From Alistipes sp. (GTDB taxonomy: Bacteria; Bacteroidota; Bacteroidia; Bacteroidales; Rikenellaceae): 39,234 nucleotides of DNA. Below, piece after piece: positions 22,799 through 38,337 of the stretch. Both the position numbers and the translations under genes were made by a program. The notes under the pieces are model-generated. The model made no database searches and had not been told where the DNA came from. It was given only the letters and a program-made list of their open reading frames with translations. The stretch is taken from assembly GCA_017505725.1 (NCBI GenBank), contig JAFVOR010000010.1, forward strand, positions 1 through 39,234. Reading direction: 5' to 3'. Within the stretch, counting starts at the first letter, position 1. Every line of letters begins with the position of its first letter.

Positions 22799-24241
22799 TT
22801 ATCTACTTTTCTCGCCTCTAAAGAGGAAAAAAAGGAAGGTCACCATCACCATCACCGCATACGCAAGCCAGAGAGCCCATTCGGGCAGAGTGATTGAGAA
22901 GTGACCATAGGGCAGAGATGCCGCCCACTCCACCGCGCGATTTTGCCACTCGGCACACCACACCGCAATTGCGCCCAACCGAGGTATTGCAAATGTTAAA
23001 ATACCCGACAAAAGTATTGCGTTTGCGAGCAAAATGACCAACGGATTTATCAGAATACCCACAACAGATACTATCGAAAATGTGCTTGATATCAGCGGAA
23101 TAGTCGAAATTGTAGCTGCTGCACCCACAAATATTACACTCACAAGTGTGTCAACAAATCTGTTGCGCGTGCGACACACTCTTATCAGGGGCATTGCCCA
23201 CAGTAGAATGGCCGCCACCGCAATGAATGAGAGCTGAAACGAGATGTCGAAGAGCAGGTGAGAATCGAACACAAGCATCACAAATGCGGTCGCTGCCAGG
23301 ATGTTTATGCTCGAGTAGTTGCGCAACGAGGCGAACGAGATTTGTAGTGCCGAAAACATTATGGCGGCACGCACAGCACTTGGCGAGAAGCCGCAGAGCC
23401 ACACATAGAGCCAGATGAGTGCGACCGCCGCAACCGAGCGCACCACATTGCCATAGTGGAAGAGTACGAGTGGCAGGAGCAGAAGGTTTATCAGAAGGAA
23501 TGCGATGCCGATGTGGAGTCCCGAGACTGCGAGCAGATGCGATGTTCCGCTTGCCGAGTATTTCTCGCGTAGCGCAGAGGATATTTCGCCCCTCTCGCCT
23601 GTGGTCATCGCCAGCACCACAGCCCTGCCATCGCTCTTCTCCATTGCACCTTGCAGTCGTGCTACCGCTCTGTCGTGCAGCGTTTTGCGTTGGGTGGGCA
23701 GATATTCGTAAACCGCTCGGTGACTTACCGATACCGAGCCTACAAAACCTCGATGGTGCATCAGTCGGGCATACCTCTCGCGCTCGGCTCGAAACGGAAA
23801 AATAGGCGTTGTGAGGTGTAGTCTGTCGCCGGCGTTGAGGTGCATCAGCGAGTCGCCCCATACCACCACCTTGCGTCGCTTGAGTGAGAGCTCCTGACAA
23901 TCCTCGATTGTCGCCTCTGCCGATGTGTAGCCTCCTCGCGATGTGGATGAGCGCTCGATTTTCAGCGTCATCTCGACAGGAGTATTGTAGCGCACCTCGC
24001 CACGAAAGGAGAGTGAGTGGAGCAGCGCTCCCGCCATAAAGACGGAGATAACGATGGCAACCACACGCAACCACTTTGTTAGCACAACTGCGCCGACAAG
24101 AGCCACAATAGCACCCGTCAGCAGCAACCATAGTGGAAGGGTGAGCCTATCACCAAAAAAGATACCCATAGCAAATGGGATAATCCCCACCGCCATAGGT
24201 ATCTTTGCTATCTCTCTTTTAAGAATCTCTGCTCGGCCCAT
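22799..24241 (-). CDS. comEC: ComEC/Rec2-family DNA-uptake channel, short form
   Basis: ComEC forms the inner-membrane channel for single-stranded DNA during natural transformation. This 480-residue protein has N-terminal membrane helices, a soluble DUF4131-type region (~90-200) and the Competence domain with its hallmark TSHLLAVSGLHIGIAFLLIN, followed by 7-8 hydrophobic helices. The C-terminal metallo-beta-lactamase-like nuclease domain of longer ComEC proteins is missing; the frame ends after the last helix (FLFFLFRGEKSR). The ATG at 24241 begins MGRAEILKREIAKIP. A TACCTTTG box lies 4 bases upstream, so the message may be leaderless, and the lysozyme-like phage gene ends only 13 bases before. 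Whether the cell is competent cannot be told from here. Confidence 0.88.
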   Translation of the reverse strand: MGRAEILKREIAKIPMAVGIIPFAMGIFFGDRLTLPLWLLLTGAIVALVGAVVLTKWLRVVAIVISVFMAGALLHSLSFRGEVRYNTPVEMTLKIERSSTSRGGYTSAEATIEDCQELSLKRRKVVVWGDSLMHLNAGDRLHLTTPIFPFRAERERYARLMHHRGFVGSVSVSHRAVYEYLPTQRKTLHDRAVARLQGAMEKSDGRAVVLAMTTGERGEISSALREKYSASGTSHLLAVSGLHIGIAFLLINLLLLPLVLFHYGNVVRSVAAVALIWLYVWLCGFSPSAVRAAIMFSALQISFASLRNYSSINILAATAFVMLVFDSHLLFDISFQLSFIAVAAILLWAMPLIRVCRTRNRFVDTLVSVIFVGAAATISTIPLISSTFSIVSVVGILINPLVILLANAILLSGILTFAIPRLGAIAVWCAEWQNRAVEWAASLPYGHFSITLPEWALWLAYAVMVMVTFLFFLFRGEKSR

Positions 24242-24254: not shown

Positions 24255-24680
24255 CTATTTTGGACCAAAATCTGAAATAAAAAGTTCCCAACCTCGCCAA
24301 ATATCTCCCATTTTTGCCGCTACGCCATTCTCCACCTCGGACATAGCCGCCACAATGGCTGTCATCACCGCTCCGTCGGTGGTGCAGATACTCTCGTCGG
24401 CAGCGAGGTGTGTGGCTTCGCATACTCGACGAATGTAGCTCTCGGTGTGGTTCTCGCAAGGGGGTGCATAGCGAGATATCATCTCCCGCAAGGTGTGGCA
24501 GTGATGCTTCACAGCATAGGTGTGCAACACCACAAACATCGCTCGATAGCCCCACTCAATCGACTCGAATTGACGAAATGCCGCATCGCTGCTCACCGCC
24601 TTCTCACCCTTGTAGCGCACCCCTCCGAGTCGAATATTTCCGGGGTTGAGGTTTCGTAATCCTCTACTCATCTTCGCCAT
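24255..24680 (-). CDS. Phage lysozyme-like protein (P5-type)
   Basis: This 141-residue protein begins with the RGLRNLNPGNIRLGG motif, matching the N-terminus of phage PRD1 P5-like structural/lytic proteins and small Bacteroidales phage lysins. A second conserved region (SRYAPPCENHTESYIRRVCEATH) resembles the helical part of that family. It probably binds or cleaves peptidoglycan, and there is no signal peptide, so it would need the holin encoded just upstream. The start at 24680 overlaps the holin gene by 17 bases; an ATG three codons later (24671) also overlaps. It is the last gene of the phage-type cluster, 13 bases before comEC. Confidence 0.8.
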   Translation of the reverse strand: MAKMSRGLRNLNPGNIRLGGVRYKGEKAVSSDAAFRQFESIEWGYRAMFVVLHTYAVKHHCHTLREMISRYAPPCENHTESYIRRVCEATHLAADESICTTDGAVMTAIVAAMSEVENGVAAKMGDIWRGWELFISDFGPK

Positions 24681-25101
24681 ACTCTCCCATTTCGTGTTCG
24701 ACCTTTCGTTTCACATAGTTGCGTAGCCACATAAAGAGCTTGCGGTCGCTCAACACCGAGGCATTCTCCAGGAATGACCACATCTCCACGCCACAGATGG
24801 CTCCTGCCACGATGCGAGTGATGTGGAGTGCTACAAAGTTCAGCACGCACGACTCTACCAACCAGCACATACCGATGGTGAGAAGCACAAGTCCCGCCTT
24901 GCGTATGGTGCGCCACGCCTCGCGCGAGGAGAAGTACCACCTCTCACCTCGACCCTTTGCTTCGGCACGAGAGGCGAGTATGCCCGTCACAAAGTCGACG
25001 AGGATAAATAGGAGGGCGCAGATGACTACCTCGCGGATGGGTGCGAATATCGCAGCAAGGGCAATGACCATTCCGCTAAAAAATCTGTATGTAGCCTCCA
25101 T
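24664..25101 (-). CDS. Phage holin family protein
   Basis: This is a 145-residue membrane protein with three or four hydrophobic helices. IALAAIFAPIREVVICALLFILVDFVTGILASR carries the VDFVTGI segment typical of the phage_holin_4 group, followed by a basic loop and a second hydrophobic block. The tail is charged (KRKVEHEMGEYGEDE). Holins permeabilise the inner membrane so that the lysin can reach the wall. The ATG at 25101 is preferred because the longer frame adds residues that overlap the upstream gene without family resemblance. It overlaps the upstream connector gene by 26 bases and the downstream lysin by 17, a typical lysis cassette. Confidence 0.82.
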   Translation of the reverse strand: MEATYRFFSGMVIALAAIFAPIREVVICALLFILVDFVTGILASRAEAKGRGERWYFSSREAWRTIRKAGLVLLTIGMCWLVESCVLNFVALHITRIVAGAICGVEMWSFLENASVLSDRKLFMWLRNYVKRKVEHEMGEYGEDE

Positions 25102-25549
25102 CGATAGTACAGTGTTGCAGAATGTCGCTCTCGGCATCGTATGTCGGAAACTGCGATGCGTGAGCCTTCAGGTAGTTCGACAATCGTTTCAGGAGGATCT
25201 GGCGACGCAGGCGGAGCGACTTCTGGAGCATCTCCATTGCGCTCTTGGTCGAGCTGTCGGCTCGCAGCGACGAGGAGATACGCAACCCCGCCTGCCCTGT
25301 GCAGACATTCAGCGCAGGCTGAATCATTGTTCGCACTGCCATAGCGAGCGCAGGTGCGACAAAATCGTTACGCAGAGTCGGATGAGAGCCCTCAAGCATC
25401 TCCTCGTATAGCTCAGCTCCCACCACCGGTATAATGTAGTGAATAGCTGCTGCAGCGATGTCAGCATCGCCGACCACATCTGGCGACACATACTCGCCAT
25501 CGCCAAAAGCCAATTCGATAACTTCTTCATTTGTGATAATGTTTTTCAT
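25076..25549 (-). CDS. Phage head-completion/connector-like protein (DUF6712-like)
   Basis: The 157-residue, mostly helical protein resembles the DUF6712 group found next to capsid genes in Bacteroidales prophages (IITNEEVIELAFGDGEY... AAIHYIIPVVGAELYEEM). In related positions such proteins connect portal and tail. The family name is from memory and only moderately secure. The ATG at 25549 lies 4 bases after the portal stop; a longer frame adds four residues. Its 3' end overlaps the holin gene. Confidence 0.6.
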   Translation of the reverse strand: MKNIITNEEVIELAFGDGEYVSPDVVGDADIAAAAIHYIIPVVGAELYEEMLEGSHPTLRNDFVAPALAMAVRTMIQPALNVCTGQAGLRISSSLRADSSTKSAMEMLQKSLRLRRQILLKRLSNYLKAHASQFPTYDAESDILQHCTIDGGYIQIF

Positions 25550-25553
25550 AGGT

Positions 25554-26771
25554 TTAACCAATTGATTTCAGGTTGTACTTTGTGATTTCGGAGAGATAGA
25601 GCTGCTGTCGCTCGTCACTCTCGTCGTAGTCAAGTCCGTCGGCCTTGCGTGCCTCCCACACCTTCATATAGATAGGCTTCGAGCGTGTAGGCGGACGGTT
25701 GATGATCTCGAGCGAGGAGCAGTCGATGGCGAGAATCTCCCCTATGGCTCGCACGATGGGCTCGAGCAACTCGCTCTGTTCGCCCAGAATTATGGTGTTG
25801 AGTGCCACCTCATATTCGTGCAAGATGCGCTCGGCACTGAAGCCTGTCGAGTAGTCCAAGCCACTCAGCGAACGAAACCACGAGTGCGCCACCACAATGT
25901 CGGTGGTTGCCTGATCGTGCAACGCCTTCCAGTCGCCATCGTTGTGCGCCTCGATGGGGATAAATCGCGAGTTGTCGTCGGAACTCTCGTCACGGATTAT
26001 GAACATCACCTGCCCGGGCTTGCCCGCAAATCTTTGCTCGGCAAGTCGTGCCAACGAGGCAGCCTCGGCCTCGCTGTCCACCGCATTGTCGATCATCATC
26101 ACGCCCGAGAGCTGAAACGAGTTGTCCAGGCGGGCGATGTTCCATCGGTCGGTCTTGTAGGCTATGGCCGAGACATTCATACCGGCAATGTATTGAGGCA
26201 CACCATAGTGGGTAAACATCGGCTCGTAGTCCTTGTAGTGGATTATCGAGCGCAGAGTGCCATCGGCGTGACGCTCGAAACGGGGGTAGAGCGGGAGCGA
26301 ATGCGCCTCCGAAGCGCGAAAGTGCGTCCAGTCGTGGTGGAGAATAATGTGGTCGGAGCCCTTCGCCACGCGACAAAGTGTGGCATCCTGATGGTAGAGC
26401 GAGAGGAAGGAGTGTTTATCATCGGTCACCACCTCAAGAAAGGCGTTGCCGAAGAGCGACTTGTCGAAAGCGAGCTTGTTCAGCACCTGACGCAACGATT
26501 CTCCTTCGCCATTTACCCTCTCCACAATATTGCCGAGCAGGGGGATCGAGCAGTCGTAATTAAATCCCTTGCCCGATATGTAGTCGGCCTTGTCGTTGAG
26601 TATGCGACGATGGGCGGTGGAGCGGCGTGAAAGGAGAGCCAACGCCTCGGGGAGGTTGTTATCCAATCCCCATCGCCAGAACTCCTTGCTCTCGACTCTC
26701 TGTGCCGAGGTGGCGTAGATGTCGTCGGCTCTGTTTTGGGTTGTGCATACTATGCTTTTTCTTTTTTCCAT
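25554..26771 (-). CDS. Phage portal protein
   Basis: This 405-residue protein resembles the HK97-type portals of Bacteroidales phages. It has an N-terminal WGLDNNLPEALALLSRRS stretch, an ADYISGKGFNYD region, FDKSLFGNAFLEVV, and a C-terminal helical part with FSAERILHEYEVALNTIILGEQSELLEPI. Portals form the dodecameric DNA entry channel of the capsid and normally bind the terminase during packaging. It lies downstream of the capsid gene here, the reverse of the usual order. No terminase gene is present in the window. Confidence 0.8.
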   Translation of the reverse strand: MEKRKSIVCTTQNRADDIYATSAQRVESKEFWRWGLDNNLPEALALLSRRSTAHRRILNDKADYISGKGFNYDCSIPLLGNIVERVNGEGESLRQVLNKLAFDKSLFGNAFLEVVTDDKHSFLSLYHQDATLCRVAKGSDHIILHHDWTHFRASEAHSLPLYPRFERHADGTLRSIIHYKDYEPMFTHYGVPQYIAGMNVSAIAYKTDRWNIARLDNSFQLSGVMMIDNAVDSEAEAASLARLAEQRFAGKPGQVMFIIRDESSDDNSRFIPIEAHNDGDWKALHDQATTDIVVAHSWFRSLSGLDYSTGFSAERILHEYEVALNTIILGEQSELLEPIVRAIGEILAIDCSSLEIINRPPTRSKPIYMKVWEARKADGLDYDESDERQQLYLSEITKYNLKSIG

Positions 26772-26787
26772 ACTGTTGTAGGTTGGT

Positions 26788-27258
26788 TTAGATTAGTTCG
26801 GTCGAAAACTCTGTGTCGTCGGAGTGCAGTTGCAGCGTCACTCGGGGTGAGTCGTGCGCCCCTTCGCCCGAGGAGGATGTCAGCGAGTCGAGTCGCAAGG
26901 GCTGCTCGTTGCCGAAGTGTGCCGAGTAGCCCACCAGCACTCTTCGCCCGTCGCAGAGCGTCACCACAGCCACTACACCCTCGACTGCCGCACGCTCAAG
27001 AAAATCCTGTTCGAGCCACCTCTCGGCCGAGCGACGGTCTGCTACAAGGTGCAGACGATGCGTGACAAGGGTTGCTCCATCTTTATTTGTCGCCTCCTCC
27101 TCGTAGTGCGAGCCATCGTCGACGAGTTCCACCACTAAGGGTGAAGAGGCAAGCGTCAGCTCGCAGCCCCGACTCGAGAATAGTGCCGATGTAACCGCAT
27201 CGGTGGGGTAGAGCGCAACTTGCTCTACCCCTCCAACAGCTTTATAATTCGGATTCAT
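26788..27258 (-). CDS. Hypothetical protein of the phage-type cluster
   Basis: This 156-residue protein has no recognised domain. Its start is the ATG of MNPNYKAVGG, since a longer frame runs into the capsid gene. It appears to be a beta-rich two-part protein: residues ~5-75 (VALYPTDAVTSALFSSRG... LVVELVDDGS) and ~75-156 (LHLVADRRSAERWLEQDFL, VVAVVTLCDGRRVLVGYS). Its place between capsid and portal suggests a minor head or adaptor protein. It has 14- and 16-base gaps to its neighbours and an intact frame. Confidence 0.6.
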   Translation of the reverse strand: MNPNYKAVGGVEQVALYPTDAVTSALFSSRGCELTLASSPLVVELVDDGSHYEEEATNKDGATLVTHRLHLVADRRSAERWLEQDFLERAAVEGVVAVVTLCDGRRVLVGYSAHFGNEQPLRLDSLTSSSGEGAHDSPRVTLQLHSDDTEFSTELI

Positions 27259-27272
27259 CGCGAGGCTTGGCT

Positions 27273-28256
27273 TTAGATGAGCGAGACTCCTGCGTTGTAG
27301 ATGAAGCCCGCAAGAAGCGTATCGTCGACAAGTGCGGTGCCGATGAGGAATACCACGCGCTGACGATTCTCCATCTCGTCGGGGTTGTACCACATACGAA
27401 TCTCCTTCTCGGGCGAGTCTGTGGTGTTGAGCGCAAGAACAAGGTTGCGACGATCGGTCAACACACAGAACGAACCTGCTCGGTGGAGCGTTGTGCCACT
27501 ACGAGGAATCTCGACAAGAGGAATGCCGTGGTAGTTGAGCGCAGGGCGACCATTCACACCCTCACCATTCATATCGATGAGCCCCTGCGCCTCGAGGTAG
27601 AAGAAGTAGGCATCATAGATGTCGGAGCTGACAAAGAATGCGAGGTTTCCCTCCGGTGCCAGGGCGTGGATGTTTTCGCCGGCTAATCTCCAAGCGCTCT
27701 TGAATATCTCTTGCACGGGTACCTCCTGCTCCATATTGTAGACCTCGAGTGGCACATCATTGCCATTGTCGTTCTTGCTGGTGATGAAGTGCTTGATGAA
27801 GCCATTTACACAGAGGTTATCCGACACCTCGCCATCTTCGTCGCCAAACCAGGTGTGGATGTAGATGCTCTCGGTAAGTGCGCGACGGAAGAGCTCGGTC
27901 TCGGCAGCCTCGAGGTCGGTACCACTCAAGTCGCCGAGGCTCACCGCTGACGAGTTGGTGATCATCTCGTAGATGGTCGAGAAGTAGTCCTCGGCAGAGT
28001 AGCTCGACTCGGCCTTAAGCTTTGCCATCGGAATCTCCTTCTGGTCGAGGTTCTTGGCTGTGCCACCCTGCCAACCCGACGAGAAGGGCTTGAGGATGTC
28101 GTTGTTGTGCGAGAAGATAGGCACCTTGGTAGGCAGAGGCATATTGTAGAGCACTCTCACGCCCAAATCTTCGGCAGCCTTGCCACAAAATGCAGGGCGG
28201 AAAAAGAGGTTCTCAACATCGGTCAAACTGTAGATCTTTGAATTTTCGATAATCAT
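27273..28256 (-). CDS. Phage major capsid protein (HK97-like)
   Basis: This 327-residue protein fits the length and arrangement of HK97-fold capsid proteins in Bacteroidales prophages: an N-terminal arm and E-loop region (LPTKVPIFSHNNDILKPFSSG), a central helical P-domain (AETELFRRALTESIYIHTW), an A-domain segment with NYHGIPLVEIPR, and a strand-rich C-terminus (HRAGSFCVLTDRRNLVLALN). It lies directly after the ClpP-like protease gene, the classical protease-capsid order. The identification rests on overall pattern and context, with no catalytic motif to confirm it. Confidence 0.75.
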   Translation of the reverse strand: MIIENSKIYSLTDVENLFFRPAFCGKAAEDLGVRVLYNMPLPTKVPIFSHNNDILKPFSSGWQGGTAKNLDQKEIPMAKLKAESSYSAEDYFSTIYEMITNSSAVSLGDLSGTDLEAAETELFRRALTESIYIHTWFGDEDGEVSDNLCVNGFIKHFITSKNDNGNDVPLEVYNMEQEVPVQEIFKSAWRLAGENIHALAPEGNLAFFVSSDIYDAYFFYLEAQGLIDMNGEGVNGRPALNYHGIPLVEIPRSGTTLHRAGSFCVLTDRRNLVLALNTTDSPEKEIRMWYNPDEMENRQRVVFLIGTALVDDTLLAGFIYNAGVSLI

Positions 28257-28293
28257 AATTAAAGCATTTTTTAGGTTAATTTTTTAGTTGTTT

Positions 28294-29151
28294 TTATAGC
28301 CCTTTGATTCGCAGGGCATCTTCGGCATAAGCCAAAGCGTTTTGTGAGAGCGCACTGCCCTCCAATGAGGGGTCTTCGCGTGGCTCTGTTCGGGTGGCGG
28401 AGATGGCGTTCTGACCCTCGCGCAGCGATAGTGCCGAGAGGCTTCCGGCGAGGTTGTCGGGCAGGTGGAGGATGTTCGTCGCAGAGGGCAGAGGCGGTAA
28501 CCCCTCACTCTTGTCGGAGAGGTTCAACCAACCTTTAATCTTTGCCACAATCCCTTTGCGTTGAGGCTCCTCGCCAATGATGCGGTCGGCAAGTGCAGCT
28601 GCGACCACCTCCTCGGGAGCGAGCCAGCGACCTCTGCCGCCATTCTCGTTCATCAATGACACCATATCCTCGACACTGCGTCCCGAGCGTCGGGCATAGA
28701 GAGCCGCAATTCGCTCGTCGCTCTTCTCGAGCATATCGAGGCACTCCTTCATATCGGAGGCATTACCCTCGGTCGAGCAGTGGGCGCGATGGATGAGATA
28801 GAGTGCCGAGGAGGCCACCTCGCGACAACCCTCGCTTGCCGCCTGAGCTATGATGGTGGCTGCCGAGGCGGTATATCCGTAGCAGCGAGTTGTCACCTTG
28901 CACTCGAGCGAGGCGAGCACCTCATAGATCAGCAGCGCATCGTTCACATCGCCACCCGTCGATCGGATGTTGACCACCACCTCTGACGGTGCCATCTCGC
29001 GGATATGCTCCACCTCGCGACGGAACCTCTCGTAGGTGGCCACACTCTGCGATGAGTCGCCAAACTGCATCTCCTCGTCAACGCCAATCACCCCCTCGAT
29101 GTCGATGGTGCACACCGAGGCTTCGTTCCTAATTTCAATCTTTGTCTTCAT
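28294..29151 (-). CDS. ClpP-like prohead maturation protease
   Basis: This 285-residue protein has a ClpP-type serine protease domain at ~10-190: NIRSTGGDVNDAL (oxyanion-hole region), the nucleophile S96 in YGYTASAATIIAQAA, and the general base H121 in ALYLIHRAH. Its C-terminal ~90 residues are polar and disordered-looking (LPPLPSATNILHLPD...), like a fused scaffold. Phage enzymes of this type trim capsid precursors during head maturation. It sits 37 bases before the capsid gene. The alternative, a host ClpP paralogue, is unlikely given length and context. Confidence 0.82.
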   Translation of the reverse strand: MKTKIEIRNEASVCTIDIEGVIGVDEEMQFGDSSQSVATYERFRREVEHIREMAPSEVVVNIRSTGGDVNDALLIYEVLASLECKVTTRCYGYTASAATIIAQAASEGCREVASSALYLIHRAHCSTEGNASDMKECLDMLEKSDERIAALYARRSGRSVEDMVSLMNENGGRGRWLAPEEVVAAALADRIIGEEPQRKGIVAKIKGWLNLSDKSEGLPPLPSATNILHLPDNLAGSLSALSLREGQNAISATRTEPREDPSLEGSALSQNALAYAEDALRIKGL

Positions 29152-29169
29152 CTTGTTCGTTTAGTTGAG

Positions 29170-29421
29170 TTACTTGCTGTAGACCACCCCTCGTACCTTC
29201 TCGTAGGAGCACCCCAACTCACTGGATATCTGCTCGATGGCTCGCATCTTCGCCTCGCCACCCCTTACGCGGCGATTCACCTCATTCTGGATGTAGAGTC
29301 GCTCAATGGCCACACGGTTGAGGAGTCCTCGTTGCCACATTGCGTTGACCGCATCGTGGAGGTTACCACTCGGAACGCTCGATAGGAGCGATGTCAGCAA
29401 TTTTCTCTCTGTTGTATTCAT
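29170..29421 (-). CDS. Small helical protein of the phage-type cluster
   Basis: This 83-residue protein starts at the ATG of MNTTERKLLTSLL, whose position directly after the preceding stop fits tight packing; a longer frame overlaps the tail gene. Its C-terminal half (AIEQISSELGCSYEKVRGVVYSK) looks like a helix-turn-helix, suggesting DNA binding, possibly as a small regulator or terminase-small-subunit-like protein. That is inference, as no family match is certain. It separates the tail-type from the head-type genes. Confidence 0.6.
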   Translation of the reverse strand: MNTTERKLLTSLLSSVPSGNLHDAVNAMWQRGLLNRVAIERLYIQNEVNRRVRGGEAKMRAIEQISSELGCSYEKVRGVVYSK

Positions 29422-29423
29422 TT

Positions 29424-31790
29424 TCAATCTTTTAGTAGTCGTTCGAATGTGCATTGTGCAGTTTTGTGTTCGTTGTCCCACTTCTCGATACGCACCAGAC
29501 GGTAGAGCGAACTTTCGCCCCCGATGGCGAGACGGAAGGTGTTGCGAAAGGATATGGTTGCCCCCTCCTCCGAGAGTAGCGAAGCTGCCTCGGCGGTGGT
29601 GAGCGAGATGTTGAGGGTGATCTGCTGCCCCTCGCTTTGGCGCAAAAGACGAGGCAGATGGTAGCGACTCAAACCCTCGGTGTGGTTGCGCTCCTCGAAG
29701 CAGAGGTTTACCCCCTCCTCATCGACGAATGCTGCGTAGGGATAGCTTTGAGTTGCATTTCCCGCAATCCACACCTCGTTCTCGGGGAGCTCTCGCAGCC
29801 CCTTGTAGCAGACGATGCGTGGCGTAAAGCCGAGGTCGATACCCTGCTCCTCCTCGCCCATATCTCCCACTCGCATCAGCGATGCCGAGCGTGCAAATGC
29901 GAGCATTTTGGAAGCGTTGAGGGTTGTGGCAAAGAGCTTATCTCCCAGCTCGCGTGTCGAGAGCGTGGTGCCATAGAGAGGGTTGCGGTAGCTCCACTCG
30001 CCCAGCGTAGTCTCGTTCTCGAGGTTGAAGCGGTGCGAAGCCAAATCCCCATTGCGATAGGCAAAGTGGTGGTTTTGTGGCTTGTCGAGCCCAGTATCGC
30101 GAATCTCGATTCCGCCGCTGAGATCGATACGGTCGCTGATATCCATCTCCTCGTACCCCTCGTAGAACTCCTCCATCGGCTCGATGTAGACCTCGCGTCG
30201 GCTCTTGTCGGTGTGAAACACAAGGTTGAACATCTCGGCAAGAGCTACCAACAGGTCAATCTGTCGAATCTGACTTGGTGCCACATCCTTGTAACGAATC
30301 AACGAGTTGTAGCCGGGCACCGTTGTGAAGTAGGGGCGTAGGGTAGTGCCATTGCCAACGGTGATGTTCATCCCCGGCTCGGCACCTCCGAACCAGATGG
30401 TGTCGATGATGTATTGCCCACCTGCAGCAATACTCTTCGGAGGCAGACGCAGATCCATCACCACATCTATGCGCCCCTCTTCGTTCATATCGCCCTGATA
30501 GAGAGCCCAATCTTTGGTGTAGGGCATCCAGATCCCCGATGTGCTGTCTCGGTAGATGAGTTGGAGCGAGAGTGGGGCGGTAGCGGGCATAACCACCGTC
30601 GACGAGCGATCACTCCACTGCGCTACGCTGTGGCGATTGCCATCTGCGGTCTCGACCTCGAGTCTGTACTCTTGCCCATTGATGTGGTCGAATACGAAGG
30701 CGCGGTATTGCCATCTCGCTTTGGGTGCGTTGCGGTGATCCTTGAAGGTGTTAATCAGTGGGAACTCCACACAGACACCGTCGACACCCTCCACCACATC
30801 GAAGCCCACAAGTCGCTCTCGCGAGGCCACCTTGTAGTCGGTTGTGTACTCGAGGTGGAGCATAAATCCGACATTGACCGAGCGAACGGGCGTGAAGCAG
30901 ATGTCGCCATACTTTGTCTTCGAGAAGGCGTCAAGAGTGTTGAATGTCTCCCTCATCTGCCTGCCATCGCTATCGAAAGCCAATGGGTTGGCTGTATCCA
31001 CAATCGGGCCTACCGAGTGCAGCTCCACACTCTTCGAGGCGTAGACTCTGCCTGCGTAGTCTGCCGAGGCTGTGAAGGGAGCCGAGCGTCGTGCAAAGAA
31101 GTCGCAACGCTCTTTAGCATCGTGTGCATCGCTTCGCGAGAAGTCGCCACTCATATAGAGCGACTGCCCCAATTCGCTCTCGAAGAATCGGCTGCGCAGT
31201 TTGTATCCCGCCTTGGCGAACACTCTTCGTACCATCTCCGCCACCGAGATAAAGGGGTGGTAGTCGTCAGAGAGCATCACTCGCTCGATGGGTTGGTCCG
31301 ACGAGCCATAGCCACTCTGCTTGCCCTCGCGGTAGACGGGCAGGAAGCGCACCGCCTTCTCCCACTCCCACGAGTCGCTTATGGTGGCGAGGTTGAGCCT
31401 CTCCTCCAACTCTATATCCAGCTCGTCGAGTCGGTTGTGTACCACCTCCTCGATCCACTCGGCACCACCCTCGCTTATGCGGATGAGGTAACCCCCGTTG
31501 CCCCCTTGCAGAGTCGTGGAGCGGAGGTAGGCACTACCTTCGAAGATGGTCACATCGTCGCACTTGATGCAGGCGGTGTGGTGCTCGGCATTGAACCTCG
31601 ATAGCGCATAAATATCCTTGGATGAGGCGAAGATAGCATCGTTGCGTGGGGTGGATGGCAACTCAATCTCGATATCTCGACCACTCCTCGCCCCTTCCAC
31701 ATCGGCGAGTTGCTCGATATCGAATGTTATGGGAACGGTAGGCTCTTTGCCGAGGTCGCACAACGCTCCGTCAATCCATAACTCCATCAT
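29424..31790 (-). CDS. Large phage tail/baseplate-type protein
   Basis: This 788-residue protein has no signal peptide. It resembles large structural proteins found in the tail region of Bacteroidales prophages: an N-terminal beta domain (MMELWIDGALCDLGKE... IELPSTPRNDAIF), a middle with VAEMVRRVFAKAGYKLRSRFF, and a conserved segment QIDLLVALAEMFNLVFHTDKSRREVYIEPM typical of baseplate hub-like proteins. The name is based on remembered patterns and gene context, so the function is probable and not proven. Two ATGs (31790 and 31787) are possible; the start overlaps the previous gene's stop as ATGA. Confidence 0.6.
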   Translation of the reverse strand: MMELWIDGALCDLGKEPTVPITFDIEQLADVEGARSGRDIEIELPSTPRNDAIFASSKDIYALSRFNAEHHTACIKCDDVTIFEGSAYLRSTTLQGGNGGYLIRISEGGAEWIEEVVHNRLDELDIELEERLNLATISDSWEWEKAVRFLPVYREGKQSGYGSSDQPIERVMLSDDYHPFISVAEMVRRVFAKAGYKLRSRFFESELGQSLYMSGDFSRSDAHDAKERCDFFARRSAPFTASADYAGRVYASKSVELHSVGPIVDTANPLAFDSDGRQMRETFNTLDAFSKTKYGDICFTPVRSVNVGFMLHLEYTTDYKVASRERLVGFDVVEGVDGVCVEFPLINTFKDHRNAPKARWQYRAFVFDHINGQEYRLEVETADGNRHSVAQWSDRSSTVVMPATAPLSLQLIYRDSTSGIWMPYTKDWALYQGDMNEEGRIDVVMDLRLPPKSIAAGGQYIIDTIWFGGAEPGMNITVGNGTTLRPYFTTVPGYNSLIRYKDVAPSQIRQIDLLVALAEMFNLVFHTDKSRREVYIEPMEEFYEGYEEMDISDRIDLSGGIEIRDTGLDKPQNHHFAYRNGDLASHRFNLENETTLGEWSYRNPLYGTTLSTRELGDKLFATTLNASKMLAFARSASLMRVGDMGEEEQGIDLGFTPRIVCYKGLRELPENEVWIAGNATQSYPYAAFVDEEGVNLCFEERNHTEGLSRYHLPRLLRQSEGQQITLNISLTTAEAASLLSEEGATISFRNTFRLAIGGESSLYRLVRIEKWDNEHKTAQCTFERLLKD

Positions 31791-32752
31791 ATGCTACCCT
31801 CCTTTATGCCCCATTGGCGAAGGGTGAGTCGCACACTGTCGGGCTCGCCGAACAGGTTGCTGTCGATGACCGATGTGAGCACCTCCACCTCGTGAAGGTT
31901 GTTGCGTCGCTCGATCCACACCTTCGTCGAGGAGATGATCTCGGCCAGAGCCTTGGTGATGTGGCTAGGCTCGTAGCGAGAGTTGAGGAGGAGCAACTGC
32001 TCGGAGGTCGATGATACCACCTGCAAGCCATCGGAGGTGGTGATGGTGTGCTTCTCGCTCTTGCGTTGCGCCTTTGCAATGGCTGGAAAGGTGTATCGCT
32101 CTATCGACCCCTTCTCCGATATCCACGCCAGGCGCAACGATTTGTCGCGAGCCCTCACTACTCTGTAGTGCAGGGTGGTCAACCACTCACCGTTGTGGGT
32201 TATCTCCACCGATAGCGAGCCGATGTTTCTTTCGAAATCCTCGGTCGAAATTGTGAGCCTTACCGCACCTGTAGGTGATGTGTAGTCGAGTGATAAATCG
32301 TCGCCCTGGTCGCTCTCGATGTGGGCTGCAAAGTGGTCATCGACACCTCCTATCAGTAGTAGTTCGTCGCGCTCGCCATAGGCGATGGTGCGGTCGAGAG
32401 GCATCGTGGTCACAATCGTGGGTGCGCTCACCTCGCATCTGTTGACCGAGATGCGTATCGGAGTGGCCTCAACACCGTCGGTGCGTATGGTGTATTTGGC
32501 GGTGGGCAACTCCCCGAACGATGTGCCGACAAGCTGTGTGGGGCGATGCTCGGCAGGGAGTGTGGCGTAGGGGGCGATGTTTACCTCGGCCGAGGTCACC
32601 TTGCGAAGGCGTTGTCGAGCGATGGTCGTGTCATTGTCGCAGTCGACCACTTCGATCTCCACATCTTGTGGTGTGTCGCTCTCGCTCTCGATGCCGAAGC
32701 GCAGAGCAGAATTGCGAGGGGAGAAGTCGTGGGAAAGGGTTGTCAGAATCAT
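31787..32752 (-). CDS. Phage-type structural protein, possibly distal tail or tail fibre
   Basis: This 321-residue, beta-rich protein opens with SHDFSPRNSALRFGIES and later has SRYEPSHITKALAEIISSTKVWIE and a C-terminal VDSNLFGEPDSVRLTLRQWG-like segment. I associate the general style with proteins adjacent to baseplate genes in Bacteroidales prophages, but know of no named family. No catalytic motif is visible. Its stop overlaps the start of the 788-residue gene, so the two are translationally coupled. Confidence 0.5.
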   Translation of the reverse strand: MILTTLSHDFSPRNSALRFGIESESDTPQDVEIEVVDCDNDTTIARQRLRKVTSAEVNIAPYATLPAEHRPTQLVGTSFGELPTAKYTIRTDGVEATPIRISVNRCEVSAPTIVTTMPLDRTIAYGERDELLLIGGVDDHFAAHIESDQGDDLSLDYTSPTGAVRLTISTEDFERNIGSLSVEITHNGEWLTTLHYRVVRARDKSLRLAWISEKGSIERYTFPAIAKAQRKSEKHTITTSDGLQVVSSTSEQLLLLNSRYEPSHITKALAEIISSTKVWIERRNNLHEVEVLTSVIDSNLFGEPDSVRLTLRQWGIKEGSI

Positions 32753-32766
32753 AGTTGTTCTTTGTT

Positions 32767-33171
32767 TTAGAAAATTGTTTCAATCTCGGCTCGCGCCTCC
32801 ATCGCCACAGCTCCGTGGTGGTCGACCGCCTCGGCGCAGGGCGAAATGGTCAGATTGTCGACCACCGCCACCAAACCCTCTTTCGAGAGCTCGACGAAGA
32901 TTTCGAGGAGCTGCTGCTCCATCTCTGCATAGAGTTCGTTGCGCTCAGTTGGTGATAGCTTTGCCCCTTGTTGGGCGACGATGAGCGAGACATTGTAGGT
33001 TATTCGTCCGTGTTTTCGCCCCTCGATGGCAACAAATTTCGGAGTCGAGAGGAAGGCTGCAGGGTAGTGTGAGAGGGATGAGGGGTAGTACGACCTGTCG
33101 TGCTGACATAGCTCGTAGCCACACCTCGTTACCAACCCCTCAATCGCCCTGCACAATAGGGTGCGATTCAT
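32767..33171 (-). CDS. Small protein, first gene of the phage-type cluster (possible tail completion)
   Basis: This 134-residue protein has an N-terminal helix, a strand-rich middle (KFVAIEGRKHGRITYNVSLIVAQQG) and a helix-rich C-terminal part (LSPTERNELYAEMEQQLLEIFVELS). The length and alternating pattern recall tail terminator/completion proteins, but this is a guess. It is the promoter-proximal gene, about 155 bases after the predicted start site, and 14 bases before the next gene. Confidence 0.5.
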   Translation of the reverse strand: MNRTLLCRAIEGLVTRCGYELCQHDRSYYPSSLSHYPAAFLSTPKFVAIEGRKHGRITYNVSLIVAQQGAKLSPTERNELYAEMEQQLLEIFVELSKEGLVAVVDNLTISPCAEAVDHHGAVAMEARAEIETIF

Positions 33172-33256
33172 AGGTTAATAATTGTTGTAAAATGTGTTAA
33201 TAGATTGTTCGTGACTGTCGATAACTGTAGGAATGTTCCGAGCAGTCAGCAAATTT

Positions 33257-33289
33257 GGATGTTGATAAAGTTTTGAACAGGATGTTGAT
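33257..33289 (-). repeat. Imperfect direct repeats in the leader of the phage-type cluster
   Basis: GGATGTTGAT occurs at 33257-33266 and 33280-33289, each followed by a GTTTTGAA/GTTGAAAA-like word. They would lie in the 5' leader of the cluster transcript and could be an operator or an RNA-binding site. Confidence 0.4.
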
Positions 33290-33331
33290 TGCTGTTGAAA
33301 ACCTTGTGTCGATTGACGCCGATTGACGGTG

Positions 33332-33363
33332 CAAATATATAATCGGAAAAGGGGGCTTGTCAA
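33332..33363 (-). promoter_or_regulatory. Promoter of the phage-type cluster (TTGAC-type box, TATATTTG)
   Basis: On the minus strand, TTG (33363-33361, within CTTGACAAG) is followed after 21 bases by TATATTTG (33339-33332). This is one of the best promoters in the window and the only one seen for the eleven genes that follow. Confidence 0.6.
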
Positions 33364-34460: not shown

Positions 34461-35444
34461 ATGATTACTATCTACTTGAAGCAATACAACAAAATTATTC
34501 GCAATGCCGATACCGAGCTCTTCGACGATCTCGGTTTCGATGATATTCTCTGGATCGATATGATGCAGCCTACCATCAAGGAGCAGAAGGCTGTCGAGAA
34601 CTTTATGGAGATCAGCCTCCAGACCAAACAGCAGGTCGAGGAGATTGAGTCCACATCAAAGTACTCCGAGACCGAGAATGCCATCATCTCGAACTCGAAC
34701 TTCTTTGTCCCTACGGGCGATAGCTTCGAGGTCGAGCCGGTGTCGTTCATCCTCTCGAACGAGGGTGTGCTTGTGTCGGTGCGTCAGGCCGAGATGCGTA
34801 CCTTCCGCGAGGCGGAGAAGCGACTGCAGATGAACTATCGCAGCTTCTCGACCGGCTACCACATCCTCATCTCGTTGCTCGAGGTGCGCATCGACTTCGA
34901 TGCCGACCTTGTCGAGTTGGTAGGCCGTCAGGTTTCGTCGCTCTCGAAGACCATCACCAAGGAGGACTCCATCGACAAGGATATCCTCTTGCGCCTCAGC
35001 ACCTTGCAGGAGCGCACAATGGTCCTCCGCGAGAATATCTTCGACCGTCAGCGTATCCTCTCGGGTATCTTGCGTAGCGAGCGTTTCCCTAACGATATCT
35101 ATCCGCGTCTGCAACTTATGATCAAGGATGTCAACTCCCTGATCTCCCACACCGATTTCTCGTTCCAGCGTCTTGACTATATTCAGGATTCGGCTCTCGG
35201 TCTTATCAATATCGAGCAGAACGAGGTGGTCAAGATATTCTCGGTGGCAGCAGTAGTCTTTATGCCCGCAACACTCGTGGCGAGTATCTATGGTATGAAC
35301 TTCAGGGTTATGCCCGAGTTGGAGTGGGTCTACACCCTTCCGAATGGTTGGAATCTCCCGTTGGGCTACATCTTTGCCATTGGTTTGATGATTCTTGCCT
35401 CGGGACTCACAATGGGCTACTTCCGCTACAAGAAGTGGTTGTAG
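34461..35444 (+). CDS. corA: CorA-family magnesium/divalent metal transporter
   Basis: CorA is a homopentameric inner-membrane channel for Mg2+ (also Co2+, Ni2+). The 327-residue length fits. A large cytoplasmic domain (to ~260) with long helices (SLSKTITKEDSIDKDILLRL, LMIKDVNSLISH) precedes two C-terminal membrane helices. The first (FSVAAVVFMPATLVASIY) runs into the signature YGMNF, and the second is LGYIFAIGLMILASGL, followed by the basic tail RYKKWL. There is no Shine-Dalgarno. The M20 gene follows after 34 bases and may be co-transcribed. Metal selectivity cannot be read from sequence. Confidence 0.93.
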   Translation: MITIYLKQYNKIIRNADTELFDDLGFDDILWIDMMQPTIKEQKAVENFMEISLQTKQQVEEIESTSKYSETENAIISNSNFFVPTGDSFEVEPVSFILSNEGVLVSVRQAEMRTFREAEKRLQMNYRSFSTGYHILISLLEVRIDFDADLVELVGRQVSSLSKTITKEDSIDKDILLRLSTLQERTMVLRENIFDRQRILSGILRSERFPNDIYPRLQLMIKDVNSLISHTDFSFQRLDYIQDSALGLINIEQNEVVKIFSVAAVVFMPATLVASIYGMNFRVMPELEWVYTLPNGWNLPLGYIFAIGLMILASGLTMGYFRYKKWL

Positions 35445-35478
35445 AGATTGCAAAAGGCAAAAACAGACAAACTTAAAT

Positions 35479-36897
35479 ATGATTAAAACACTCATTGCAT
35501 CAGCATTGTTGGTGTCGAATGTCGGTCTCGATTGGCTGAACTCAAATTTTGATACCTACGACAAAATTCAGAAACGGCTCTACGAGTATGCCGAGCCGGG
35601 CTATATGGAGCTCAAGAGTGCGGAGTTGCTCATCCGGCACCTCGAGGAGAATGGCTTCAAGGTGGAGCGTGGCGTGGCGGGTATACCTACAGCCTTTGTA
35701 GCGAGCTTTGGCTCGGGTAAACCGGTAATGGCGGTACTTGCCGAGTATGATGCTCTGCCGGGTTTGTCGCAGGACACAACGCCCGAGAACAGACCGCTTG
35801 TCGAGGGCGGTTATGGACACGCCTGTGGTCACAACCTCATCGGTACAACCGCATTGTCGGCTGCTGTGGCGGTGTCGAAGTGGCTCGCCGAGGGACACGA
35901 GGGAACAATCCGTCTCTATGGCTGTCCTGCCGAAGAGGGTGGCGGTGGCAAGACCTATATGGTGCGCGAGGGGTTGTTCAAGGATGTAGATTGCTGCATC
36001 TCCTACCACCCGTCGCGTCGCAACGACATACTCGACAAGACACAATCGGCAAAGATTGGCATCATCTTCGACTTTGAGGGTAAGACCTCTCACGCAGGTG
36101 CTACCCCTTACGAGGGTCGTTCGGCTCTCGATGCAGTCGAGGCGTTGAACTTTATGATGAATCTCAACCGCGAGCATATTCACCCCGATTGCAGAATGCA
36201 CTATGTGATTACCAATGGCGGTGAAGCTCCGAACATCGTGCCCGACAAGGCTCAGGTCTACTACTATCTTCGCCATCCGAATCCTGAGGTGTTGAAGGAT
36301 CTATTGAAGCGTACTTTGGCTGCTGCTGAGGGCGCTGCAATGGGTACGGGTACCACCGTTAAGCATAGCTTTGTGAGCGGTACATATCATATTTTGCGAA
36401 ACAACCATCTGGCCTATATGGCACATCGCAACCTCGAGAGGGTGGGCGGTGTGATGCTTAGCGAAGAGGAGAAGGCTTATGTCAGGGAGTTGCACCGCAA
36501 TGCGGGACAGAGCGGCGATGTCAATTTCTCGCAGTATGAGAAGATTTTGCCTCACAAAGAGGTAACTGTTGGAGGTGGTGGCTCGGACGATACGGGCGAT
36601 GTATCGCAGGTTGTGCCTCTCTGCCGTGTGCAGACCTGTGTAAGTCCAATGACCTCGCACACTTGGCACTTCGCCTCAATCAGTGGCACATCCATCGGTA
36701 CCAAGGCTATGATGAACGCAGCAAAAACCATCTGCCTCACATTTATCGAACTCTACAAGAATCCTAAGGAGCTGAAGAAGATTCGCCAGGAGTGGGAGTC
36801 GGTGCAGGGCAAGGACTACAAGCACGAGTGCTTGGTTGGCAACGCCCCACCAGCACTGGAGTTCTTTTACAACAAGGCAAAGAAGAGTCAGAAATAG
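35479..36897 (+). CDS. M20-family amidohydrolase (AbgB-like), copy 1
   Basis: This is a 472-residue M20D metallopeptidase-type protein, close to aminobenzoyl-glutamate hydrolase subunit B. Metal-site motifs are GYGHACGHN, CPAEEGGGGKTYM and SYHPSRRN, with a late histidine in SPMTSHTWHF. The dimerisation domain has SHAGATPYEGRSALDAVEA. The C-terminal SDDTGDVSQVVP matches AbgB. The true substrate is unknown; peptide-like amides are the family norm. The first ~18 residues (MIKTLIASALLVSNVGL) are hydrophobic and could be a weak signal peptide. The ATG at 35479 avoids overlap with corA. It is duplicated in tandem with the next gene at a fixed offset of 1440 bases. Confidence 0.87.
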   Translation: MIKTLIASALLVSNVGLDWLNSNFDTYDKIQKRLYEYAEPGYMELKSAELLIRHLEENGFKVERGVAGIPTAFVASFGSGKPVMAVLAEYDALPGLSQDTTPENRPLVEGGYGHACGHNLIGTTALSAAVAVSKWLAEGHEGTIRLYGCPAEEGGGGKTYMVREGLFKDVDCCISYHPSRRNDILDKTQSAKIGIIFDFEGKTSHAGATPYEGRSALDAVEALNFMMNLNREHIHPDCRMHYVITNGGEAPNIVPDKAQVYYYLRHPNPEVLKDLLKRTLAAAEGAAMGTGTTVKHSFVSGTYHILRNNHLAYMAHRNLERVGGVMLSEEEKAYVRELHRNAGQSGDVNFSQYEKILPHKEVTVGGGGSDDTGDVSQVVPLCRVQTCVSPMTSHTWHFASISGTSIGTKAMMNAAKTICLTFIELYKNPKELKKIRQEWESVQGKDYKHECLVGNAPPALEFFYNKAKKSQK

Positions 36898-36918: not shown

Positions 36919-38337
36919 ATGAAAATTCTCATAGCATCATTCATGTTGCTCTCAAACATCGGTTTAGAGTGGTTTGATTCGCATTTCCATACCTACGATA
37001 AGATTCAAAAGCAGGTTTTCGAATATGCCGAACCCGGCTTTATGGAGTACAAAAGCTCGGAGTTGTTTATACGACACCTCAAAAGGAATGGCTTTAAGAT
37101 TGAGCGAGGTGTTGCTGGTATGCCAACAGCCTTTGTCGCTTCGTTTGGCTCGGGCAAACCCGTAATGGCGGTACTTGCCGAGTACGATGCTTTGCCAGGC
37201 TTGTCGCAAGATACTACTCCACAGAACAATCCTCTTGTTGAGGGTGGTTACGGACACGCTTGCGGACACAACCTTATCGGCACATGCGCCTTGTCGGCTG
37301 CTGTAGCAGTGTCGAAGTGGCTTGCCGAGGGGCATCAGGGAACAATCCGAGTGTATGGTTGCCCTGCCGAAGAGAGCGGTGGCGGCAAGACCTATATGGT
37401 ACGCGAGGGGCTATTTGACGATGTCGATTGTGCCATCTCCTACCACCCAACGAGACGTAATCAAATCCTCCGTAGTCCGCATTCGGCAATGATTGGCATT
37501 CTCTTCGACTTCGAAGGCAAGACCTCGCACGCGGGCGCTACTCCGCACGAAGGACGCTCGGCACTCGATGCTGTCGAGGTTTTGAACTATATGATGAATC
37601 TCAATCGTGAGCATATCCACCCAAACTGCAGAGTACACTATGTGATAACCAATGGTGGTGAGGCTCCGAATATCGTACCCGATAAGGCACAGGTCTTCTA
37701 CCAACTTCGACACCCCGACCCCAAGGTAGCGAAGGATTTGTTGAAGCGCACAATAGCCGCTGCTGAGGGTGCAGCCTTGGGTACAGGTACAACTGTTAAA
37801 CATACCTTTGTTTGCGGTACTTATCCAATATTGCGCAACTTGCATCTTGCTCGAATAGCACATCGCAACCTCAAAAAAGTGGGCGGCGTTATGCTCACCG
37901 ACGAGGAAAAAGAGTATGTTAAGGTGTTGTGTCGCAATGGAGGGCTAAAGAAAGAGGTGGATTTTTCGCGATACGAAAGTGTCGTGCCTTTCCGTGAGCA
38001 ATTATCGTCAGCTGGAGGTGGCGCAGATGATACAGGCGATGTTTCGCAAGTAGTACCACTCTGTCGTGTGGAGACTTGCACTAGCCCTATGACTGCGCAC
38101 AAGTGGCCTTTTGCTTGTATAAGTGGTACAACTATCGGTACCAAGGCGATGTTGAACGCCGCAAAGACCATCTACCTTACATTTGTTGAGCTCTATCAGA
38201 ACCCAGAGGAGCTGAAGAAGATTCGCCAGGAGTGGGAGTCGGTGCAGGGCAAGGATTACAAGCACGAGTGCTTGGTAGGCGATGCACCACCTGCCTTGGA
38301 GTACTTCTATAATAAGGCGAAGAAGAGCCAGAAGTAG
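36919..38337 (+). CDS. M20-family amidohydrolase (AbgB-like), copy 2
   Basis: This is a 472-residue tandem paralogue of the preceding gene, same length and colinear, with most residues identical by eye. The metal-site motifs are kept (GYGHACGHN, CPAEESGGGKTYM, SYHPTRRN, SPMTAHKWPF). Synonymous sites differ much more than protein, with more A/T-ending codons, except a block near the 3' end where 48 bases are identical (36768-36815 with 38208-38255). It begins 21 bases after copy 1, so the two form one transcript. It ends before a strong terminator. Differences near the active-site loop (DVDCAISYHPTRRNQILRS) may mean different substrates. Confidence 0.87.
   Translation: MKILIASFMLLSNIGLEWFDSHFHTYDKIQKQVFEYAEPGFMEYKSSELFIRHLKRNGFKIERGVAGMPTAFVASFGSGKPVMAVLAEYDALPGLSQDTTPQNNPLVEGGYGHACGHNLIGTCALSAAVAVSKWLAEGHQGTIRVYGCPAEESGGGKTYMVREGLFDDVDCAISYHPTRRNQILRSPHSAMIGILFDFEGKTSHAGATPHEGRSALDAVEVLNYMMNLNREHIHPNCRVHYVITNGGEAPNIVPDKAQVFYQLRHPDPKVAKDLLKRTIAAAEGAALGTGTTVKHTFVCGTYPILRNLHLARIAHRNLKKVGGVMLTDEEKEYVKVLCRNGGLKKEVDFSRYESVVPFREQLSSAGGGADDTGDVSQVVPLCRVETCTSPMTAHKWPFACISGTTIGTKAMLNAAKTIYLTFVELYQNPEELKKIRQEWESVQGKDYKHECLVGDAPPALEYFYNKAKKSQK

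Follow-up and report, generated by a model that had tools for sequence, protein, structure and literature searches.

A contig of 39,234 nucleotides from an Alistipes sp. genome (Rikenellaceae, Bacteroidales; GenBank assembly GCA_017505725.1, contig JAFVOR010000010.1), analysed over its whole length and hereafter called the window, carries an operon of eleven phage-type genes (g1 to g11 in the direction of transcription). These genes constitute the half of a domesticated phage, inherited with the Rikenellaceae chromosome, that builds the particle. In relatives of the window's genome, a terminase gene with a divergent repressor of the helix-turn-helix (HTH) and S24-peptidase type forms the other half; it has its own locus in most of the genera mapped, and a few deep genera have it within the operon itself. 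Domestication of the particle genes is near certain. We favour, with a probability of roughly 60%, the reading that the two loci encode a short-tailed particle resembling a gene transfer agent (GTA), which one family of Bacteroidota captured from a phage. Judged by its genes, the particle is likely to package DNA and perhaps moves genes between cells.

An operon inherited with the Rikenellaceae chromosome

The portal gene (g8) is found in 131 of 150 Rikenellaceae genomes (mainly Alistipes), nearly always as a single copy, in 17 of 22 genera and in 95 of the 99 genomes of good quality, a distribution far from the few strains that would have spoken against a resident element. Order-wide, portal matches occur in 7 of 295 genomes: three belong to the family (the window's genome and two others), and four are distant (25–39% identity). 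Among named genomes, the best 80 of 263 relatives are labelled Alistipes or Rikenellaceae, plus one Tidjanibacter and one ‘Bacteroidales'. Four genera numbered g2, g10, g12 and g22 (1, 2, 4 and 1 sampled genomes; these are genus numbers, not genes) have neither portal nor terminase. Two good genomes of the window's own genus (G046 and G115) have a terminase and no portal, a possible loss of the virion operon. A further portal, 86% identical to that of the window, lies on a contig (L002/L114, contig C22) of G103, a genome of another genus with its own divergent copy; the contig is probably foreign to that assembly. In other families (L091–L095, in G320 and G306), distant portals are accompanied by capsid and protease genes and have a terminase close by, in G320 at two loci; these may represent prophages or additional domesticated elements.

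The genes recognized hold one order in 125 of the 126 loci compared (118 distinct portals, window included), the exception being a locus with a displaced protease (L072). Among 91 distinct full-span loci, protease, capsid, portal and g9 are present in all and g2 and g3 in 88, followed by lysin (69), holin (68), g4 (61), g1 (52) and g7 (48); the lower counts may reflect divergence or loss. A tree of five block proteins from 30 genomes in 12 genera, compared with rpoB under 500 label permutations, has 20 of 27 splits in common with the reference (permutation maximum 2); of its 15 strong splits, 12 are strong in rpoB too, with none contradicting a strong rpoB split. Single genes behave alike (portal 19/27, capsid 16/27, protease 11/24 and g3 14/23 splits in common), with no strong conflict.

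The ratio of non-synonymous to synonymous substitution rates (omega, dN/dS) was taken from pairs with dS of 0.08–0.6 only, since saturated pairs made the medians unusable; these pairs have common ancestry and are not independent, and g1 yielded none and g7 and mqnA one each. Median omega is 0.20 for the portal (201 pairs, none above 0.5) and for the protease, 0.34 for the capsid (16 of 137 pairs above 0.5), 0.26 for g3, 0.25 for g9 (12 of 59), 0.24 for g4 (2 of 22), 0.18 for the holin and 0.23 for the lysin (14 of 82), compared with 0.08–0.23 for the host genes of the flanks. Omega is mostly well under 1 in unsaturated pairs, and not near 1, the value that would have spoken against the original prediction. 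The long residence under selection proposed in the original prediction is borne out by family-wide single-copy presence, constant order, low omega and agreement with rpoB. Since the portal is family-wide, the order constant, selection purifying in the closest pairs and rpoB not strongly contradicted, we conclude that the operon is vertically inherited and domesticated.

The locus is not an active temperate prophage, with integrase, attachment (att) repeats and patchy distribution. In agreement with what had been predicted, no integrase or recombinase family was found among the 25 flanking open reading frames (ORFs) of the window that were scanned, and no direct repeats of at least 15 nt bracket the block; an integrase was also looked for in close relatives and not seen. 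The block might instead be an immobile parasite, an ancient defective prophage or satellite retained with no gain for the host. Related phages do exist, recognizable pieces are missing from some loci and one half is missing from some genomes; set against these are the lack of an integrase beside the operon, purifying selection on a par with the flanking host genes and rpoB agreement over 12 genera, which together render a mere parasite highly improbable.

Terminase and repressor at a second locus

The original prediction had noted that the operon contains neither terminase nor repressor. That holds for the operon, while most mapped relatives carry a terminase with a phage-type repressor elsewhere. 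PF03237 matches 129 of 150 family genomes, mostly once, and 24 loci read out encode a full terminase large subunit with Walker A (PPQHGKS), Walker B and an RNaseH-like nuclease, one of them, L261, being more distant. Among 53 family terminases, all keep Walker A and two nuclease motifs, and 51 keep Walker B and a third nuclease motif. With its own profile, the terminase is detected in 133 of 150 genomes and 95 of the 99 good ones, a few matches being fragmentary. Terminase and portal tend to occur together (both in 127 genomes, neither in 13, terminase only in 6, portal only in 4; Fisher p 3e-11 without correction for kinship). A terminase tree of 23 genomes has 10 of 20 splits in common with rpoB (permutation maximum 3) and no strong conflict, and its median omega of 0.11 (10 pairs) is the lowest among particle genes having more than one pair.

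In most mapped genomes the terminase occupies a site separate from the virion operon, 2.6 Mb away in G101 and adjoining rimP and nusA in the close relative G138. Of 23 family loci with long flanks, 21 (two of them by partial matches) have a divergent HTH and S24-peptidase repressor next to the terminase. An Ala-Gly pair ahead of the Ser/Lys region is kept in four of five aligned repressors, as in LexA-type proteins. In some deep genera, terminase, protease, capsid and portal lie in one operon. The single-contig genome G013 is one example, with an 8-kb locus that runs from the repressor and terminase through protease, capsid and portal to g9 and in which g1–g3 are not recognizable; the locus of G033 is similar, and in G007 the genes from terminase through g9 form one run.

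These arrangements bear on the possibility that the particle holds a cargo other than chromosomal DNA (an empty, protein- or RNA-filled head) and that the terminase is functionally unrelated to it. The terminase is unlinked in most mapped genomes and resembles that of the B40-8 group, a different phage lineage from the head genes, as this explanation would have it. Its co-occurrence with the portal (127 genomes with both, 13 with neither), its position alongside protease, capsid and portal in a single run of genes in several deep genomes and its lowest median omega speak against this explanation, making a different cargo improbable.

The PF03237 matches, gene reading and the terminase's own profile together led us to reject an earlier candidate, heads without any terminase. 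Other queries did not reveal the family terminase: PF03354 in the window's genome, the terminase of a prophage-like relative (9 of 150 genomes) and a profile from two related phages (13 of 150). The profile phrog_2, with matches in 139 of 150 genomes, mostly weak, failed as well, and its match in the window's genome looks like PhoH. It also missed the terminases of the phages G442–G444, and its silence therefore carried little weight.

Gene products, related phages and control of the operon

The open-frame check confirmed the predicted operon of eleven genes, which run head to tail on the minus strand from 33171 to 24255, all intact, behind a single promoter. Its gene set, including capsid, portal and protease, is phage-derived and intact within a host genome. 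Internal ATG codons within longer frames were chosen as the likely starts of g4 (29421), g7 (27258), g9 (25549) and g10 (25101). The head genes, on the minus strand like the other operon genes, the promoter, the leader and comEC, comprise g5 (28294–29151), a ClpP-type head maturation protease (phrog_94, E 1.9e-36; PF00574, 2.2e-24); g6 (27273–28256), the major capsid protein; g7 (26788–27258), a head protein between capsid and portal (hhalign probability 94–98 to phage genes in the equivalent place); g8 (25554–26771), the portal (phrog_11226, E 1.4e-20; TIGR01540, E 4.9e-18 and PF04860, E 1.8e-8, the latter two under curated cut-offs); and g9 (25076–25549), a DUF6712 protein in the head–tail connector position (PF20459, E 6.4e-11; phage homologues at probability 97–99). 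By sequence the capsid matches only phrog_1623 (E 0.0014); in its predicted model g6 has the HK97 capsid fold and matches the capsid structures of the Rhodobacter agent RcGTA (6tb9/6tsu).

The tail region begins with g1 (32767–33171, 134 aa), whose tail-terminator-like position suggests its putative role and which has no match in Pfam or PDB (hhalign probability 87 to a 144-aa ORF upstream of g3 in phage G442), and continues with g2 (31787–32752, 321 aa), a tail-region protein (probability 94 to a 581-aa gene preceding g3 in phage G443), and g3 (29424–31790, 788 aa), a tail hub of the gp27/gp44/VgrG type with an inserted jelly-roll domain (about 223–490). Foldseek matches of g3 to birnavirus VP2 were read solely as a jelly-roll resemblance. 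The hub differs between species (31–56% identity to the window copy). With profiles of capsid, g1, g2, g3 and portal, no credible match was obtained among PDB sequences. The 83-aa g4 (29170–29421) is a homologue of the 91-aa phage ORF between tape measure and protease (hmmsearch 3.1e-11 and 1.8e-9 in a two-sequence database; hhalign probability 97.6). Lysis would be provided by g10 (24664–25101), a holin (Phage_holin_4_1; PF05105, E 3.9e-11, above cut-off as is the DUF6712 match), and the endolysin-like g11 (24255–24680; phrog_873, E 5.7e-40; PDB 7q47 endolysin, 1.3e-10). No additional gene family is common to most of 44 family loci.

Fourteen loci from virus collections match the operon, three of them within larger phage records whose portals are 32–49% identical; of the finds that the original prediction named as speaking against it, related full prophages thus have a counterpart in phages, albeit distant ones. 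Two IMG/VR phages, G442 and G443 (37.6 and 42.9 kb), resemble the operon in their order g2-g3-...-g4-protease-capsid-g7-portal-g9 and differ from it by a tape measure between g3 and g4 (recognized as PF10145 in G443), by other terminases (in G442, PF03237 with Terminase_2) and, in G442, by a DnaB-type helicase. By profile comparison, g1 (probability 87), g2, g3, g7, g9 and the holin have phage counterparts in matching order; g11 has none in the related phages. Because the 91-aa gene that follows the phage tape measure, ahead of the protease, is the g4 homologue, the tape-measure gene is missing in Rikenellaceae exactly between g3 and g4; in 106 distinct loci, g3 and the protease are at most 1552 bp apart. 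Supply of a tape measure from elsewhere was considered and rejected: profile A3 matches 30 of 150 genomes in the scattered fashion expected of ordinary prophages. The match in the window's genome falls on contig C58, where a separate prophage-like stretch (L221, 85000–104086) holds a 1440-aa tape-measure-like gene and a Phage_integrase gene (PF00589, 1.5e-10). Short ‘phage' records (L307 and L308, that is MT838736 and MT838805) and the IMG/VR entries L031–L036, L201 and L202 resemble fragments of the chromosomal operon filed as viruses, judged by colinearity for L031–L036 and by a portal or capsid match only for the others.

One strong promoter, TTGACAAG-N16-TATATTTG (33332–33363), precedes the operon, as had been proposed, and its motif is conserved across loci. 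Among 65 loci, not deduplicated, for which 4 kb or more of upstream sequence is available, 47 show a looser pattern (TTG-N18-22-TAnnTTTG), compared with 4.6% of random windows, and TTGACAA-N14-20-TATATTTG has one to three matches per whole genome in five genomes; four other matches in G000 and G138 precede genes that are host-like by eye. The putative leader (33172–33331), whose transcription is suggested by the promoter, has direct repeats like TTATCRACA, that is TTATC[AG]ACA (33260–33268 and 33216–33224), which resemble DnaA boxes. At least one forward-strand copy is present in 58 of 105 loci (not deduplicated), at a mean of 0.89 per 450 nt against 0.04 in background and 0.006 in shuffled sequence. 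A short-word comparison of terminase and virion loci gave no clear common operator.

The predicted core-gene flanks were recovered as mqnA (PF02621, divergent) and comEC (PF03772), with corA also present. The host-like base composition proposed earlier is roughly right, with G+C of 0.535–0.571 over the block and mostly 0.49–0.55 in the flanks. Two adjacent M20-family peptidase genes (35395–36897 and 36919–38337) are perhaps a tandem duplication. The gene for the DNA-uptake channel ComEC (22799–24241; PF03772, 5.9e-50), which we do not count among the particle genes, starts 13 bases past the g11 stop on the same strand. Of 119 loci, 37 (with 32 distinct portals) have comEC on the same strand within 76 bp of the lysin, and none of these 37 is among the loci fetched from other genera of the family. 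Such spacing suggests that comEC is possibly co-transcribed with the particle operon.

The family terminase shares roughly 50% identity with terminases from Bacteroides phages such as B40-8, and records of B40-8-type phages gave no portal or capsid match; the element therefore looks composite. As a tentative and more far-reaching proposal, a single domestication event in Rikenellaceae may have captured a composite phage, in which one lineage supplied head, hub and lysis genes and another a B40-8-like terminase and S24 repressor, and whose halves later scattered. The outcome would be a short-tailed, tape-measure-free GTA, the first in Bacteroidota within the literature searched; in part of Alistipes its operon would also drive comEC and so couple DNA export to uptake.

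For the particle itself, damage-type signals would lead the S24 repressor to cleave itself, in an SOS-type induction, after which terminase and virion operon would be switched on. The ClpP-type protease would mature a small HK97 capsid, and the terminase would load chromosomal DNA into it via the portal. A short, tape-measure-free tail that recognizes related cells would be assembled from g1, g2, the connector and the jelly-roll-bearing hub g3; holin and lysin would liberate the particles, and recipients would take in the DNA, perhaps via ComEC.

Several observations weigh against a GTA-like particle. The window's own assembly (2.36 Mb in 105 contigs, 85% complete, the window being its entire contig C101) shows no terminase; the search for one elsewhere in the genome, as proposed in the original prediction, was successful in the family and not in this incomplete assembly. 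Six genomes have a terminase without a portal and four, the window's among them, a portal without a terminase. Individual pairs reach high omega (lysin up to 1.62, g4 1.03, g9 0.84, g3 0.75, capsid 0.66). A tape-measure profile gave zero matches in the block-strand frames of the 126 loci, and four mapped loci of the genera g8 and g14 have retained heads and terminase and lack g1–g3 by profile, so that a delivering tail is doubtful in these loci. Finally, in a study of faecal virus particles, Rikenellaceae are abundant in total DNA and absent from the hosts named for 23 of 25 GTA events (PMC12946183).

Comparison with known systems

Known gene transfer agents are few beyond the Alphaproteobacteria, and our literature search found no report of this Rikenellaceae element. 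A particle retained by most of a gut Bacteroidota family would open gene flow in these hosts to testing and would supply a minimal selected set of terminase, protease, capsid, portal and connector, and raises the question of how DNA is delivered by a tail without a tape measure. Since particle and motor can be separated by megabases (2.6 Mb in G101), prophage scans may misfile such loci as remnants.

What is found here corresponds to several features of a GTA: phage-derived, intact head genes, vertical inheritance with purifying selection, a family terminase (133 of 150 genomes) and a locus free of integrase and replication genes. Encapsulins differ, as the Rikenellaceae element has portal, protease, terminase, hub and lysis genes. 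A tailocin or contractile injection system, with sheath and tube and no head, does not fit either, protease, capsid, portal and g9 being present in all 91 full-span loci.

The element is like PBSX of Bacillus subtilis in its domestication, SOS-type control and similar portal family. It might be a killer particle of that type, which packages host DNA, lyses the cell and kills non-kin strains through hub and lysin, moving no genes. The inserted jelly roll of the hub, variable between species (31–56% identity), the holin and lysin recognized in 68 and 69 of the 91 full-span loci, the resemblance of the portal to the PBSX-type family TIGR01540 (below cut-off) and the SOS-type repressor adjoining the terminase would all suit such a role. 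PBSX has a long contractile tail, however, whereas sheath, tube and tape measure are all unrecognized in the Rikenellaceae element, and the four g8 and g14 loci have retained heads and terminase but not g1–g3; we therefore consider a killer particle unlikely and retain the GTA-like reading.

RcGTA, compared by its gene content, likewise has an HK97 capsid, protease and portal, vertical inheritance and regulators located elsewhere, and ComEC is required in its recipients. In contrast to the Rikenellaceae loci, which have no tape-measure match and thus do not group with RcGTA-like elements (Rhodogtaviriformidae), RcGTA has a tape measure, a siphovirus-like tail and a terminase inside its main cluster.

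The closest parallel in layout is FpGTA of Faecalibacterium, which its 2026 report terms the first GTA in the human gut microbiome; the likeness is one of described gene layout (PMC12946183). As described there, FpGTA is encoded by two small, separate operons of 10.5 and 5.5 kb, and particles with about 9 kb of DNA have been demonstrated (PMC12946183). Both elements are split in two and have terminase, portal and capsid, receptor-binding and lysis genes and no identifiable tail. They differ in that FpGTA has a Firmicute host, a scaffold in its head operon and a terminase that sits with the heads, whereas the Rikenellaceae terminase lies apart from them in most mapped genomes. Because FpGTA makes them (PMC12946183), DNA-filled particles are feasible from a split layout without an identifiable tail, such as that described here.

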